A DNA stretch of 64,000 bases from an uncultured Flavobacteriales bacterium (GTDB lineage Bacteria; Bacteroidota; Bacteroidia; Flavobacteriales_D; Parvicellaceae), in contig CAJWDP010000002.1 of NCBI GenBank assembly GCA_913030835.1, positions 1 to 64,000 on the forward strand, written 5' to 3'. The first letter of the stretch is position 1. Each line of letters begins with the position of its first letter. Below the pieces are notes generated by a model. That model was given only the letters and a program-made list of their open reading frames with translations. It was not told the origin of the DNA and did not search any database. The translations under genes and the position numbers were made by a program. This document shows positions 52,157 to 57,996 of this stretch, one piece after another.

Positions 52157-52748
52157 TACCTAATACCTTAAAAGACTTTACAAAGGAATCGATCTCTTCT
52201 TGGCTCAATTCTGCCGACAAGGCAGAAATCAGAACCTGATACAATCGATTATCAGCCAAAATATGCCAACAGGCGATTCCTCTATTCGTGTCAGCAATCT
52301 GATAATAATAGCCCATATGTTCCCCTAGAGTCATTTCCATTTCAATACTGGCGTCACTGATCGAATGCCTTAACTTTGTTTCCCTGATGCCATTCTGAAG
52401 AAGCTCTTTTCTAAATTCTACCGGCTGGTCCAAAAGAAGGTCTGCAGGATATTCCGTGGATTTTACCAAATACACTTTTTGCTCACCAACGGTGCAAAGG
52501 TCTGTGACCGTATTCAACGAGCCATAAGGTGTATCTAAAACTTCTGTCAACTGAGTGACACTATCCGGAAATTGAATCTTATAATTGCCCAGATAAGAAT
52601 AATAAAGACTCTCGTCTATCGTGTCCATCACTTCCATAGAATCGAAAGCTAAATTTTCTGTAGCGGAAGCTTCCAAAATATCGGAGCTGCTTTCAGAGCA
52701 ACCAAACACCACAAAAACGGACAATATAAGTGCAGTAATTTCTTTCAT
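52140..52748 (-). CDS. Lipoprotein downstream of pqiA
   Basis: A 202-aa protein; signal sequence MKEITALILSVFVVFGC is a lipobox. Mature region holds IQFPDSVTQLTEVLDTPYG, MGYYYQIADTNRGIACWHILAD and a C-terminal SQEEIDSFVKSFKVLG, a pattern seen in small envelope lipoproteins. The ATG at 52748 overlaps the pqiA stop (ATGA), so the longer ORF to 52826 is not used. Confidence 0.65.
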   Translation of the reverse strand: MKEITALILSVFVVFGCSESSSDILEASATENLAFDSMEVMDTIDESLYYSYLGNYKIQFPDSVTQLTEVLDTPYGSLNTVTDLCTVGEQKVYLVKSTEYPADLLLDQPVEFRKELLQNGIRETKLRHSISDASIEMEMTLGEHMGYYYQIADTNRGIACWHILADNRLYQVLISALSAELSQEEIDSFVKSFKVLGNEEQN

Positions 52749-53680
52749 GCCGACTCTCGTTTGATACGCGAACGGTAAACAAAATGCGTCGTTAATATGG
52801 ACAGTAGCACATACGAACCAAAACAATAAAGCCCGATCAAAGCCTCTGTTTGTGTTTCTATCCCCACACTCATATTGGAAAAAGAAAAATAACCTAGGAA
52901 CAAAGCCACAACAAAAACATCAGCCATACTCCATTTGCCCATATAGTTTGTGATAAAATTCACCACTTTATTCCGTGCTAATTTGGGCGAAAACAGTTGA
53001 CCAAACGTGCACAGCAACTTTGTCACAGGAAGAATAATTGAAAATATAAGTATCGCCAATCCTACTAAGTAGTTTCCCTGATCAAACAACAACCGGATCA
53101 ATCCAAGAATAGATTTGCTCTGATAATAGTAGTACATCCTTCCGTCAAACGTAACTTCAAAGTTCAAAAACTCTAGCATTCCTTCAAAAGCAGGGATAGA
53201 CTCCGATGCCTCTGAAAAGTTAAATGGAATGGTCAAGTCGGTATTGAAAGCAGCCAATTCCATCATGGGGGTGCTGATCCCTACAATAAGCGCTATCACT
53301 GATATGATCAGTAACGAGATTGATAAGTTCTTCCAAAGAATCGGTTGATTGTAAAACAGCAATACCGTAATTAAAACAACCAGCAGTGCTCCTAATCCTA
53401 GCGCCCAACCATTTTCTACAATCACTTGGTGAGAATGATTTGACCTCTTTTTAAATACTTCAGCCCTTTCCAGCTTTTCCTCCCAGCTTCCAACTGGCAG
53501 CCAGCTCAATGGGGAAAGCAGGCCCTCTGTAAAAAGCACAGCCTCGGTGTATTTTTTTCTATTCTTTTCAAATTCAGCTGATTCCGAAAGAATCTTAAAA
53601 GTGGAAAGAAAACTACCAACAATAAAAGTACAAACCACCACTATGAAGATTGATTTACGAACTTTCATGTTTCTTTTCAA
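52745..53680 (-). CDS. PqiA-like (paraquat-inducible protein A) membrane protein
   Basis: A 311-aa protein with about six TM helices (residues about 9-27, 91-110, 115-137, 207-228, 245-270 and 285-302). The central domain with ILGLIRLLFDQGNYLVGLAILIFSI-type helices and MADVFVVALFLGYF is the PqiA signature. PqiA partners with MCE proteins in lipid transport, but no mce gene is adjacent; two lipoproteins follow instead. Confidence 0.8.
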   Translation of the reverse strand: MKRNMKVRKSIFIVVVCTFIVGSFLSTFKILSESAEFEKNRKKYTEAVLFTEGLLSPLSWLPVGSWEEKLERAEVFKKRSNHSHQVIVENGWALGLGALLVVLITVLLFYNQPILWKNLSISLLIISVIALIVGISTPMMELAAFNTDLTIPFNFSEASESIPAFEGMLEFLNFEVTFDGRMYYYYQSKSILGLIRLLFDQGNYLVGLAILIFSIILPVTKLLCTFGQLFSPKLARNKVVNFITNYMGKWSMADVFVVALFLGYFSFSNMSVGIETQTEALIGLYCFGSYVLLSILTTHFVYRSRIKRESA

Positions 53681-53722: not shown

Positions 53723-54187
53723 TTACTTTGTTAATGTTTTCAAAATGTGGGTCAATTCACTTTTTTTGAGGTAAGAATTGTACTGAGCTCGAACGACGAG
53801 ATTGGTATCCAGAAAAACGCAAGTAGGAAACGTAAGTTTACCATCGACCTCTCCTATTTGTTTTGCTAGCCGATTGATCATTTTACCATTGGGTTGGACA
53901 TCCGGTGGGTAAAGCACTCCTCGATACATTAAGGTATCGCTATTTTCAGCGTCTATTGAAATGCTGTAATAATCCTGATTGATACCTCTTCCAACTTCTC
54001 CATCTGTAAAAACATTTTTTTCCATCATTCGGCAATAGCCGCACCACGGAGCATGGATAAAAACAAAAACCGGTTTTGGATTTCCTTCCATACGATCGGA
54101 CAGCTCATCCAAGGAAATCCATTCAACCTGAGCTCGAGCTGTAAAGGCAAAACAACACGCGAAAAGAATAAAGCAAAAGCGAATCAT
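53723..54187 (-). CDS. Exported thioredoxin-like protein
   Basis: A 154-aa protein with a signal peptide (residues 1-19) and a thioredoxin fold with WCGYC (Cys49, Cys52) in IHAPWCGYCRMM. cis-Pro lies in FPTCVFLD. It should act on periplasmic thiols. It overlaps the end of the TonB-dependent receptor gene (ATGA), so it is cotranscribed with it and may serve metal uptake. Confidence 0.87.
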   Translation of the reverse strand: MIRFCFILFACCFAFTARAQVEWISLDELSDRMEGNPKPVFVFIHAPWCGYCRMMEKNVFTDGEVGRGINQDYYSISIDAENSDTLMYRGVLYPPDVQPNGKMINRLAKQIGEVDGKLTFPTCVFLDTNLVVRAQYNSYLKKSELTHILKTLTK

Positions 54188-56367
54188 TTTAATTTCACGT
54201 TAATACCAAAATAGCCTCGAACTCCCTGATTGGGAGCATAAACGTACGAAGGATCAAACGTGTAACCGTTCGGATTGCTAACCGGGTCATCCACATCTTG
54301 ATCGAAGGGGTCAAATGAACGCATAATTGAATTGGAGGGTGGCATAAAATTAAATATGTTCTTTACTCCCAGGTATAGATCAATATGTTGACCTATTGTC
54401 TTCGTAAACTTAATGTTATGAATCGCAAACGGTTGAGAATTAGGCGGTCGAAAATCATTTTCCAGCACCGGTAAACGCATTGCACCATAACCTGTTGCGC
54501 TATAGTCAACAGAACCTTTTATCCTGGAAAAGTTGTAGCCAATAGATAGAGTCCCTGACAACTTTTCCGTCAGCATTGGAGTTTCTTTGTTTAGCTGTCC
54601 ATAAGTCGTTCGGTTCATCTGGAATGCATCAAGAAATGTCATTCCCGCATGAATGGTTAATGGAAATTCAAACTTAAATCGTGTATCCAGATTCATTCCT
54701 CTGTAAATCGCATATCCATCTAAATTCTCGTAAATGATGGCGTTATCATTTTCCTCATAATCCGGATTGATTTTGTTGTCAAAATACGTATAGAACAAAT
54801 TGGCATCAATAGTAAACATACCTTTTGATGCATAGAACCTGCGCGTCAGATTTACTGAAGCATTGTAGCTAGTCTCAGGTGCTAGCCTTTCTTTCACAAT
54901 TACTTCTCTGGCTCCGGTGAGTGCGGCATGCTCTTCTGCAAATAGGTTCACTACGCGAAACCCATTGCCTAATGCAAATCGGAGATCAAACTTCTCGGTA
55001 GGTGATAGTTTAAAATTGGCTCTTGGGGAAAACACATTTCCGTGTTGTGGATGAAGATCCAATCTTGCCCCAAGTAAAAGCTGACTTTTCTCAGAGAAAA
55101 TCAATAGATCCTGTAAAAACAGACCCGGCAAACCTACCCGGTATGGGTTGTTGGAAACAATCGTGTCATTTTCCTGCATTGTAGCAACCGTGTTGTCATC
55201 AAAGTATGTAAACCGGTGAGCCATGCCGGCAGTAATGTTGTTTATTCCAACTTCTTTTATCCATTTGATCTGATTGAATGCAATGGTTTGATCTGCTATA
55301 TAGGATATATTCCCATAAACCGAATTTTGGTAATGCTTCGAAGCTGACGCCTGATATATTATGGTTTCTTTAACCGGTAGCTGATAATTTCCAATCAGCT
55401 CGCAACGATTTGTCCATATCGATTCACCATAAATCTCATCTCCTCCCCTAAAACTTGGGGTCCATTGCATCTCCCCTCCCCACCTGTCTTCATACACATA
55501 TCGGAATGCAATATTCGCAATACGATTGTACTTTCTTTTCAAACTCCATTTATTGAATACCGATATTCTATCCTGCAGCGTAACGTCAGTAAAATTATCT
55601 CCATTAAGATCTACAGGGTTACCGTATTTAAAGTAGTTCAATCCGAGAAGAACACTTAATTTACCTAGGGTAGTTGTATACCCCAAGTCTAGATTTCCTT
55701 CACGATAAGTTGAATAGCTGGCATTGACGCTTAGATTATTTCCCTTACCCGGGTTTTTAGTAATCACATTGATCAGGCCTCCGACCGCTTCAGAACCATA
55801 TAGTGTAGATGCAGGTCCTTTAATTACTTCAACACGGTCAATCAAAGAGTTAGGTATACCCTGAAGCCCATAAACGGTAGATAAACCACCAACAATTGGC
55901 ATACCGTCAATAGTAATCATAGTATACGCCCCTTCCATTCCGTTGATATGGATATCGCCCGTGTTGCACACGTTACAGTTCAGCTGGGATCGAATTCCGT
56001 TGACTTGATCGATCATTCCATAAATACTCGGCTCAGGGTTTTTGGAGAAAAATTTTGGTGTCAGAACTGTAATTGCTACCGGTGATTTGGATTTTGAAAT
56101 TTCTGCGAGAGTTCCGGAAACCACAACTTCGTCTAAGTCATCAAGGGTCTCAAATAGAATAATTTGTTCCTTCGTTTTTTCAGATACAGTAAACTCATAT
56201 GTTTCCTGTTTGAATCCTATTGATTCAATTCGTACTACATGATTGCCCAGAGATAAATTTACAGGTACCACCCCATCCTCACGAGTAATTATTTGGATTG
56301 AATCATCCAATTGTAAGTCGGCATAAGGCACTGAGAAACCATACTGGTCATGAGCAACCAAGTTCAC
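54184..56367 (-). CDS. TonB-dependent receptor, probable metal or metallophore uptake
   Basis: At least 727 aa. An N-terminal carboxypeptidase-regulatory-like domain (about residues 1-85, VVRIESIGFKQETYEF) precedes the plug (LDEVVVSGTLAEISKSK; NCNVCNTGDIHINGMEG; GPASTLYGSEAVGGLINVITK) and a 22-strand barrel ending GVRGYFGINVKLK. The plug's CNVC pair is often seen in metal-related receptors. The GTG at 56367 is the only usual start codon but leaves out an apparent in-frame signal peptide (56368-56442, ending ICLFPIICFSQ) that has no ATG, GTG or TTG; the true start may be a rare codon. Divergent from a DtxR-type regulator with an operator between. Confidence 0.87.
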   Translation of the reverse strand: MNLVAHDQYGFSVPYADLQLDDSIQIITREDGVVPVNLSLGNHVVRIESIGFKQETYEFTVSEKTKEQIILFETLDDLDEVVVSGTLAEISKSKSPVAITVLTPKFFSKNPEPSIYGMIDQVNGIRSQLNCNVCNTGDIHINGMEGAYTMITIDGMPIVGGLSTVYGLQGIPNSLIDRVEVIKGPASTLYGSEAVGGLINVITKNPGKGNNLSVNASYSTYREGNLDLGYTTTLGKLSVLLGLNYFKYGNPVDLNGDNFTDVTLQDRISVFNKWSLKRKYNRIANIAFRYVYEDRWGGEMQWTPSFRGGDEIYGESIWTNRCELIGNYQLPVKETIIYQASASKHYQNSVYGNISYIADQTIAFNQIKWIKEVGINNITAGMAHRFTYFDDNTVATMQENDTIVSNNPYRVGLPGLFLQDLLIFSEKSQLLLGARLDLHPQHGNVFSPRANFKLSPTEKFDLRFALGNGFRVVNLFAEEHAALTGAREVIVKERLAPETSYNASVNLTRRFYASKGMFTIDANLFYTYFDNKINPDYEENDNAIIYENLDGYAIYRGMNLDTRFKFEFPLTIHAGMTFLDAFQMNRTTYGQLNKETPMLTEKLSGTLSIGYNFSRIKGSVDYSATGYGAMRLPVLENDFRPPNSQPFAIHNIKFTKTIGQHIDLYLGVKNIFNFMPPSNSIMRSFDPFDQDVDDPVSNPNGYTFDPSYVYAPNQGVRGYFGINVKLK

Positions 56368-56440
56368 ACGAACCTGAGAAAAACAGATGATCGGGAAAAG
56401 ACAAATTATAAAACTGACAATTCTGATCGTAAAAAATAAT

Positions 56441-56458
56441 TTTTAGGCTAATCTAAAA
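56441..56458. promoter_or_regulatory. DtxR/MntR-type operator (inverted repeat)
   Basis: The 18-base sequence TTTTAGGCTAATCTAAAA has perfect 6-base arms (TTTTAG/CTAAAA) around a near-symmetric GCTAAT core, close to the TTAGG-TA-CCTAA pattern of metal-responsive DtxR/MntR regulators. It lies 24 bases before the regulator start and just upstream of the receptor's coding frame, so one site could control both divergent units. Confidence 0.65.
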
Positions 56459-56482: not shown

Positions 56483-57172
56483 ATGAGTAAATTTGATCAC
56501 GTCATGAGACATTTCATCAACCATACTGAAGAAAATTACCTGAAAGCCATCTACGCACTCACGGAACAATCTGAAAAGGGCGTTAGCACTAATTCAATCG
56601 CTAAAATACTGAATACCAAGGCTTCAAGCGTAACTGAAATGATGAAGAAATTGTCAGACAAAGAATTAGTATCCTATAAAAAATATTACGGCGTAGAGCT
56701 AACAAACAAAGGCAGAACTATTGCCTTGACTACAATTAGAAAACATCGATTGTGGGAAGTATTTCTTGTTGACCAGCTAAGTTTTAACTGGGATGAAGTG
56801 CATGAAATTGCCGAACAACTGGAACATATTCAATCGGAAGAGCTGACCAATCGGTTAGATGATTTTTTGGGTAATCCAAAATTTGATCCGCATGGAGACC
56901 CCATCCCCAATAGCAAAGGAAAAATAGAAGATCATAGGAAAAAGACAACGTTATCAGAGCTAAATGATGGTGCTGTAAGCACTTTGGTCGGTGTATCCGA
57001 TTCCTCGAGCCTATTTCTTCAGCATTTGGAAAAAAGGAATCTGAAATTAGGCACAACTATTGAAATCGTTAATCATTTCGAATTTGACCGTTCGTTGAGC
57101 ATTTTGGTTAATGGATCGGAACAAAACATATCACAGCGTGTGGCCGACAACTTAATTGTTCAACCCAAATGA
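56483..57172 (+). CDS. DtxR/MntR-family metal-dependent regulator
   Basis: A 229-aa regulator. An HTH domain (about residues 12-70: TEENYLKAIYALTEQ, TNSIAKILNTKASSVTEMMKKL) is followed by the metal-binding dimerisation domain (RKHRLWEVFLVDQL, EIAEQLEHIQSEEL, with HGDPIP) and a C-terminal FeoA-like SH3 domain. It should sense Fe(II) or Mn(II) and repress its divergent targets. An ATG at 56504 is an alternative start, and TAAATTTG (56488-56495) just before it matches the -7 element. Its stop overlaps the ZIP start (ATGA). Confidence 0.92.
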   Translation: MSKFDHVMRHFINHTEENYLKAIYALTEQSEKGVSTNSIAKILNTKASSVTEMMKKLSDKELVSYKKYYGVELTNKGRTIALTTIRKHRLWEVFLVDQLSFNWDEVHEIAEQLEHIQSEELTNRLDDFLGNPKFDPHGDPIPNSKGKIEDHRKKTTLSELNDGAVSTLVGVSDSSSLFLQHLEKRNLKLGTTIEIVNHFEFDRSLSILVNGSEQNISQRVADNLIVQPK

Positions 57173-57996
57173 TCGAATCCGTTTACAAATGGTTTTCGGG
57201 AATCGATCCTGTGCTTGCCGCCTTGATCGCAACGACCTTTACGTGGCTGCTTACTGCCTTCGGAGCCGCTACTGTATTCTTTTTTAAGGAATTAAGGCGA
57301 TCAGTTTTAGACGGACTATTGGGTTTCACAGGAGGTGTTATGGTTGCAGCAAGTTGTTTTGGTTTGCTGATTCCTTCGATAGATCAGGCCTCCGAAATGG
57401 GAATGTCGGGAGGATGGGAAGTAATGCCCGCATCCGTTGGTTTCTTATTGGGTGCACTTTTTCTATTCATATTGGACAAATTTCTGCCTCATTTGCACAT
57501 CAATTTCTCCAAAGATGAAAAAGAAGGAATTCAAACCGACTGGCACAGCACAACATTATTGGTACTGGCGATTACCTTGCACAATATTCCTGAAGGACTT
57601 GCCGTAGGTGTGATATTTGGTGCTGCAGGCGGAGATCTTGAGCTCATTTCAGCCGCCGTAGTCATCGCTATTGGAATCGGAATTCAAAATTTCCCCGAAG
57701 GTATCGCCGTTGCCATGCCATTGAGAAGACAAGGTGTATCCAGAAGAAAAAGTTTCTGGTACGGACAATTATCGGCAATAGTTGAGCCCATTGCAGGCGT
57801 TTGCGGCGCCTGGGCAGTAACCTCTTTCGAGCCCATACTCCCCTATGCCCTTGCGTTTGCAGCCGGCGCAATGATCTATGTAGTTGTGGAAGAGGTAATC
57901 CCTGAAACTCAGAGAGATAAGTACACAGACATTGCAACGCTGGGCTTTATAATTGGCTTTGTAATTATGATGGTTCTGGATGTTGTTCTCGGCTAA
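57169..57996 (+). CDS. ZIP family metal transporter
   Basis: A 275-aa inner-membrane protein with about eight TM helices. TM4 TLHNIPEGLAVG and TM5 QNFPEGIAVAM carry the metal-site His, Asn and Glu of ZIP transporters (GufA-like). It imports divalent metals such as Zn, Fe or Mn. Coupled to the DtxR-type regulator gene. Confidence 0.9.
   Translation: MIESVYKWFSGIDPVLAALIATTFTWLLTAFGAATVFFFKELRRSVLDGLLGFTGGVMVAASCFGLLIPSIDQASEMGMSGGWEVMPASVGFLLGALFLFILDKFLPHLHINFSKDEKEGIQTDWHSTTLLVLAITLHNIPEGLAVGVIFGAAGGDLELISAAVVIAIGIGIQNFPEGIAVAMPLRRQGVSRRKSFWYGQLSAIVEPIAGVCGAWAVTSFEPILPYALAFAAGAMIYVVVEEVIPETQRDKYTDIATLGFIIGFVIMMVLDVVLG

Follow-up and report, generated by a model that had tools for sequence, protein, structure and literature searches.

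A conserved palindrome between a DtxR/MntR-family regulator and a CxxC TonB receptor: a candidate shared operator for metal uptake in Bacteroidota

Organization of the locus

In the window (the whole stretch of 64,000 nucleotides from an uncultured Flavobacteriales bacterium that was analyzed), the palindrome TTTTAGGCTAATCTAAAA separates two divergent gene pairs, a TonB receptor and a thioredoxin-fold protein on the minus strand and a DtxR-family regulator and a ZIP importer on the plus strand (Table 1). Both the sequence and its coordinates between the divergent pairs, as claimed in the initial annotation, were confirmed, and seven of the nine base pairs are symmetric.

Table 1. Positions of the operator, the genes and the motifs in the window
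Feature	Position	Strand	Remarks
Periplasmic thioredoxin-fold protein, CGYC motif	53723..54187	-	PF13098, PF13899
TonB-dependent receptor	54184..56430	-	PF00593, PF07715; in-frame signal peptide
CNVC motif, residues 152-155, receptor plug domain	55966..55977	-	C152, C155 invariant
Operator palindrome TTTTAGGCTAATCTAAAA	56441..56458	none	Conserved core TTAG-N6-CTAA at 56443-56456
TAAATTTG, TAnnTTTG match, likely regulator promoter	56488..56495	+	30 bp from operator; spacing histogram
DtxR/MntR-family regulator	56504..57172	+	PF01325, PF02742, PF04023 above Pfam cut-offs
Recognition-helix residue T51 (numbered from 56483)	56633-56635	+	
ZIP-family metal importer	57169..57996	+	PF02535, 97.5 bits (cut-off 35.1)

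The regulator has the three domains of the DtxR/MntR family. The winged helix-turn-helix (HTH; PF01325) scored 64.6 bits (cut-off 26), the metal-binding and dimerization domain (PF02742) 110.1 bits (27), and the C-terminal FeoA/SH3-like domain (PF04023) 34.6 bits (23). It stays below all NCBIfam equivalog cut-offs for MntR, the best score being 157.2 bits against 350 (NF047407). ScaR and SloR (PDB 3hrs, 5cvi), which are among the closest solved structures by sequence, have the same domain layout over the full length, whereas they are Mn-dependent streptococcal regulators from Gram-positive hosts with Asp at the position of Asn18 of the window regulator. Translation most likely starts at the ATG at 56504. 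An in-frame ATG further upstream, at 56483, gives a 229-aa ORF, and in one sister species a stop codon lies immediately before the ATG equivalent to 56504. The ZIP gene overlaps the stop codon of the regulator and belongs to the same operon; its product scored 144.6 against the ZupT equivalog cut-off of 252.

The signal peptide of the receptor frame is good, but no ATG, GTG or TTG lies upstream of it. An ACG at 56430-56428 (minus strand) aligns with the GTG of the receptor of a sister species, and is either a rare ACG start or a sequencing or strain variant. The thioredoxin-fold gene overlaps the 3′ end of the receptor gene by 4 bp. It is followed by a gene for a PqiA-like membrane protein (52745-53680), which is kept in two sister species at about 60% identity.

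The palindrome and the DtxR box

Ten similar 18-mers were found in the window against 9-21 under a Markov null, so that significance of the palindrome by itself was rejected; its significance lies in position and conservation rather than in the repeat. The sole other match to TTTTAGGCTAATCTAAAA at three or fewer mismatches is a weaker palindromic copy (56864-56881, three mismatches) inside the regulator gene, with no sign of importance.

The initial annotation described the site as resembling the DtxR box. The resemblance is to a 14-bp single-dimer form, TTAG-N6-CTAA, rather than to the 19-bp DtxR box TTAGGTTAGSCTAACCTAA, of which the window site has a single TTAG-N6-CTAA unit. IdeR and DtxR operators share the TTAG...CTAA arms, and TTAGGCTAATCTAA of the window differs from TTAGGNNNNCCTAA, the 14-bp single-dimer site proposed for IdeR, by one mismatch, C to T at position 10 (PMC8464063). 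Unlike the window site, the IdeR/DtxR operator is a 19-bp box for two dimers, and the regulators are actinobacterial and iron-sensing (PMC8464063).

Conservation upstream of the regulator genes

Of 132 homologous DtxR/MntR-family genes, 99 have the core TTAG-N6-CTAA in the 150 bp upstream, while in 200 shuffles the mean was 0.94 and the maximum 5. Some loci of this sample are near-identical and a few were entered twice (e.g. L027/L105, L026/L104), so that 99 is slightly inflated, although the contrast with the shuffles is unaffected. A quarter of the homologues (33/132) have no such site. The exact motif TTTAGnCTnnTCTAAA gave 45 matches in 60 relatives, approximately 19 of them in the DtxR upstream region and one preceding a TroA-type operon (L061). 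Nearly all the remaining matches that were inspected are intragenic, which is consistent with the approximately 25 hits of the reversed control. Other metal genes of relatives thus also carry the site, the TroA-type operon among them.

A chance AT-rich palindrome without function would agree with the lack of enrichment, both of comparable palindromes in the window and of TTTAG-N6-CTAAA genome-wide, where the latter occurs at six places in 3.14 Mb, fewer than the reversed control pattern. Against this stands the conservation of the site at the 99 regulator loci and at 64 of 80 receptor loci (see below), in similar placement and far above the shuffles, and we regard a chance origin as extremely improbable.

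Further matches near metal genes, for which the initial annotation had suggested a genome search, were essentially absent from this genome; no convincing second site was found there, and the regulon in this genome therefore looks local. A wider regulon in it was rejected, as most of the other sites and of the near-matches that were examined (L002) are intragenic. Of the other five TTTAG-N6-CTAAA sites, three fall inside genes or at gene ends, and these genes have no metal role (L035, L037, L219). A fourth, 16 bp upstream of a gene for a family-5 solute-binding protein, has no counterpart in the sister species. The fifth is a dyad 11 bp upstream of metK (G000:C12:28153-28168; L036 1501-1516). 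In one sister species it reads TTTAGCGCACGCTAAA, at the same distance and with similar arms and different inner bases; another sister species has a damaged version and other genera have none, so that this dyad is kept within the genus only.

Importers next to the regulator

At the 99 site-bearing loci, the gene that follows the regulator encodes a ZIP protein in 42, an NRAMP protein in 26, FeoA-FeoB in 3, and a TroA/ZnuA-type binding protein or its ABC partner in 7-8. A metal importer was the next gene in about 79 of 99 loci with the site compared with 7 of 33 loci without it (Fisher p about 2e-9, a value that overstates independence because the loci are related). The interchange of unrelated importer families in one slot argues for a common substrate class, Mn(II)/Fe(II). 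On the divergent side of the same 99 loci, a TonB receptor was found in 46, and a di-haem cytochrome c peroxidase-like protein (PF06537) is the partner in about 10 (L138, L164, L183, L192, L193, L202 and others). L027/L105 and L156 encode, between the regulator and a FeoB-like gene, another DtxR-FeoA protein, whose N-terminal HTH match is weak.

The site upstream of the receptors

In the plug domain, C152 and C155 do not vary among the 13 receptors that were aligned, which had been chosen for the motif NCxVCNTGDIHING. A collection-wide search with the alignment of these 13 receptors yielded 80 loci across Bacteroidota, and the core TTAG-N6-CTAA was found within 300 bp upstream of the receptor in 64 of them (shuffle, 1.35%). 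Moreover, the core is also present upstream of 28 of the 41 relatives that have no DtxR gene closer than about 4.5 kb, which indicates that the receptor itself is a probable target. This count is the strongest evidence that the site serves the receptor as well as the regulator. The proposal that one site is shared by the regulator-transporter and receptor-thioredoxin pairs is thus supported by phylogenetic footprinting, the site being conserved upstream of both. A thioredoxin-fold gene directly follows the receptor in 25 of the 80 relatives; for a link restricted to CxxC receptors, the counts of 8/24 versus 0/6 are no more than suggestive.

Position relative to the promoters

Bacteroidota promoters have TAnnTTTG as their -7 element. 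Across the loci, its distance from the operator toward DtxR showed modes at 6-10 and 22-31 bp, and toward the receptor exact matches were found 4-8 bp from the operator in many loci. In the window, TAAATTTG fits a regulator start at the ATG at 56504, and no exact TAnnTTTG was found on the receptor side. A scan for sigma-70-type promoters was uninformative. The likely start codons are only about 73 bp apart, so that a bound repressor would touch both.

A predicted switch for outer- and inner-membrane uptake

From this arrangement and its conservation, the palindrome very probably serves an MntR-like repressor of Bacteroidota as the operator through which it controls its own gene, the ZIP importer and the CxxC TonB receptor-thioredoxin pair. 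A dimer of the metal-bound repressor, carrying most likely Mn(II) and possibly also Fe(II), would bind TTAG-N6-CTAA. The operator is predicted to overlap or abut both divergent promoters, and the bound repressor would shut off its own operon with the ZIP gene as well as the operon of the receptor and the thioredoxin. When the metal is scarce, the repressor would leave, and the putative uptake proteins of the outer and inner membranes would be made together. The thioredoxin would probably maintain the cysteines of the receptor in the reduced state in which they could handle metal.

Alternatively, the site might be the operator of the regulator-importer operon only, with the receptor governed otherwise, for example by Fur. 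Many TonB receptors are controlled by Fur, the genome encodes one Fur homologue separate from the regulator, and loci such as L023 and L101 have the site and a ZIP gene without a divergent receptor. This separation is improbable in view of the operator upstream of the 28 receptors that have no DtxR gene nearby and of the exact TAnnTTTG matches close to the operator on the receptor side.

The metal sensed by the regulator

His88, Glu111, Glu114 and His115 of the regulator fit the DtxR/MntR metal site. Glu111 occupies the position that separates MntR (Glu99) from DtxR (Cys102). Residue 18, at the position of Asp8 of Bacillus subtilis MntR, is Asn here and Asp or Asn in relatives, so that specificity for Mn is uncertain. 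Considering the metal-site residues, with Glu at the MntR/DtxR position, and the NRAMP and TroA-type partners, Mn is probably the metal, and Fe is possible as a co-effector.

A published parallel comes from Porphyromonas gingivalis, where PgMntR (PG1044) binds at the promoter of the Mn-transporter operon that includes its own gene (PMC4805248). Both it and the window regulator are Bacteroidota DtxR-family proteins with a FeoA domain, and binding to the promoter of an operon shared with a transporter gene, observed for PgMntR (PMC4805248), is predicted for the window regulator. PgMntR differs in having two FeoA domains, Asp19 and Cys108 as ligands, and FeoB2 instead of ZIP as the transporter; its operator was not mapped, and neither a palindrome nor TonB is mentioned in that report (PMC4805248).

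If the regulator answered to iron, as DtxR and IdeR do, and not to manganese, the same operator logic would form an iron-uptake switch. The three loci with FeoA-FeoB after the regulator and Asn18 in place of the Asp of MntR are in line with this, and the closest characterized Bacteroidota protein binds both Mn and Fe (PMC4805248). We nevertheless consider an iron switch unlikely, as loci that lack ZIP mostly have NRAMP or TroA-type importers, Glu111 replaces the Cys of DtxR, the genome has a separate Fur, and PgMntR binds DNA more strongly with Mn and more weakly with Fe (PMC4805248).

Comparison with a known receptor-thioredoxin module

To our knowledge, dedicated outer-membrane uptake of Mn has rarely been documented. 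In Stenotrophomonas maltophilia, MntR represses an operon of a CxxC TonB receptor and a periplasmic thioredoxin-fold protein (2026; PMC13217887), and this module is induced by low Mn combined with low Fe (PMC13217887). As in the window, a TonB receptor with a CxxC in the plug domain is followed by a periplasmic thioredoxin-fold gene, next to mntR and an importer (PMC13217887). In contrast, the S. maltophilia module is gammaproteobacterial and has the motifs CQNC and CAPC, a 25-bp MntR box and an NRAMP importer (PMC13217887). The window receptor has CNVC instead of the plug-domain CQNC, and the adjacent thioredoxin-fold gene has a CxxC that reads CGYC and not CAPC. The parallel suggests that the pairing of receptor and thioredoxin under MntR control may occur in distant phyla.

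Each part of the system belongs to a known kind, namely a DtxR-family repressor, an operator amounting to half a DtxR box, a ZIP importer, a TonB receptor and a thioredoxin. A search of the open-access literature yielded neither the operator nor its regulon across Bacteroidota, regulon databases and subscription sources lying outside that search. A defined site of 14-16 bp makes regulons predictable across Bacteroidota, and it points to roles in Mn/Fe import for the ZIP, NRAMP and ABC genes and for the conserved CxxC TonB receptor.

Correlation of the outer base pair with a recognition-helix residue

Distant regulators have GTTAG-N6-CTAAC or ATTAG-N6-CTAAT upstream. When residue 51 of the recognition helix was compared with the outermost base pair, Thr or Ser occurred with T..A in 88 of 98 cases, Asn with G as the first base in 27 of 27, and Val or Leu with A..T in 5 of 5; exceptions include L112, L193 and L286. 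A sign test of this covariation was not significant and the tree holds about 2-4 independent changes, so that the correlation is suggestive, and not proof, that the outermost operator base pair follows residue 51. In our alignment with the DtxR sequence, residue 51 corresponds to Ser42 of IdeR. In the IdeR complex, Ser42 contacts the DNA backbone (PMC8464063), and the rule may therefore act by indirect readout. The residue-to-base correlation provides a simple, testable specificity rule.

A broader reading is more tentative, and we hold it to be possible rather than probable: a phylum-wide Mn-uptake regulon of Bacteroidota, in which the receptor with CxxC in the plug, kept reduced in some species by a dedicated periplasmic thioredoxin, would carry Mn(II) or an Mn chelate through the outer membrane, and in which an MntR-like repressor would have evolved at least three operator specificities (TTTAG, GTTAG and ATTAG arms) through one recognition-helix residue.

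At loci L121-L126 of relatives, DtxR-like domains were found in frames of 426-480 aa. In three of these cases smpB is the next gene, as it is after the ZIP gene of the window, and in one a TroA-type gene is nearby; these frames are probably ABC permease-DtxR fusions in a similar neighbourhood.
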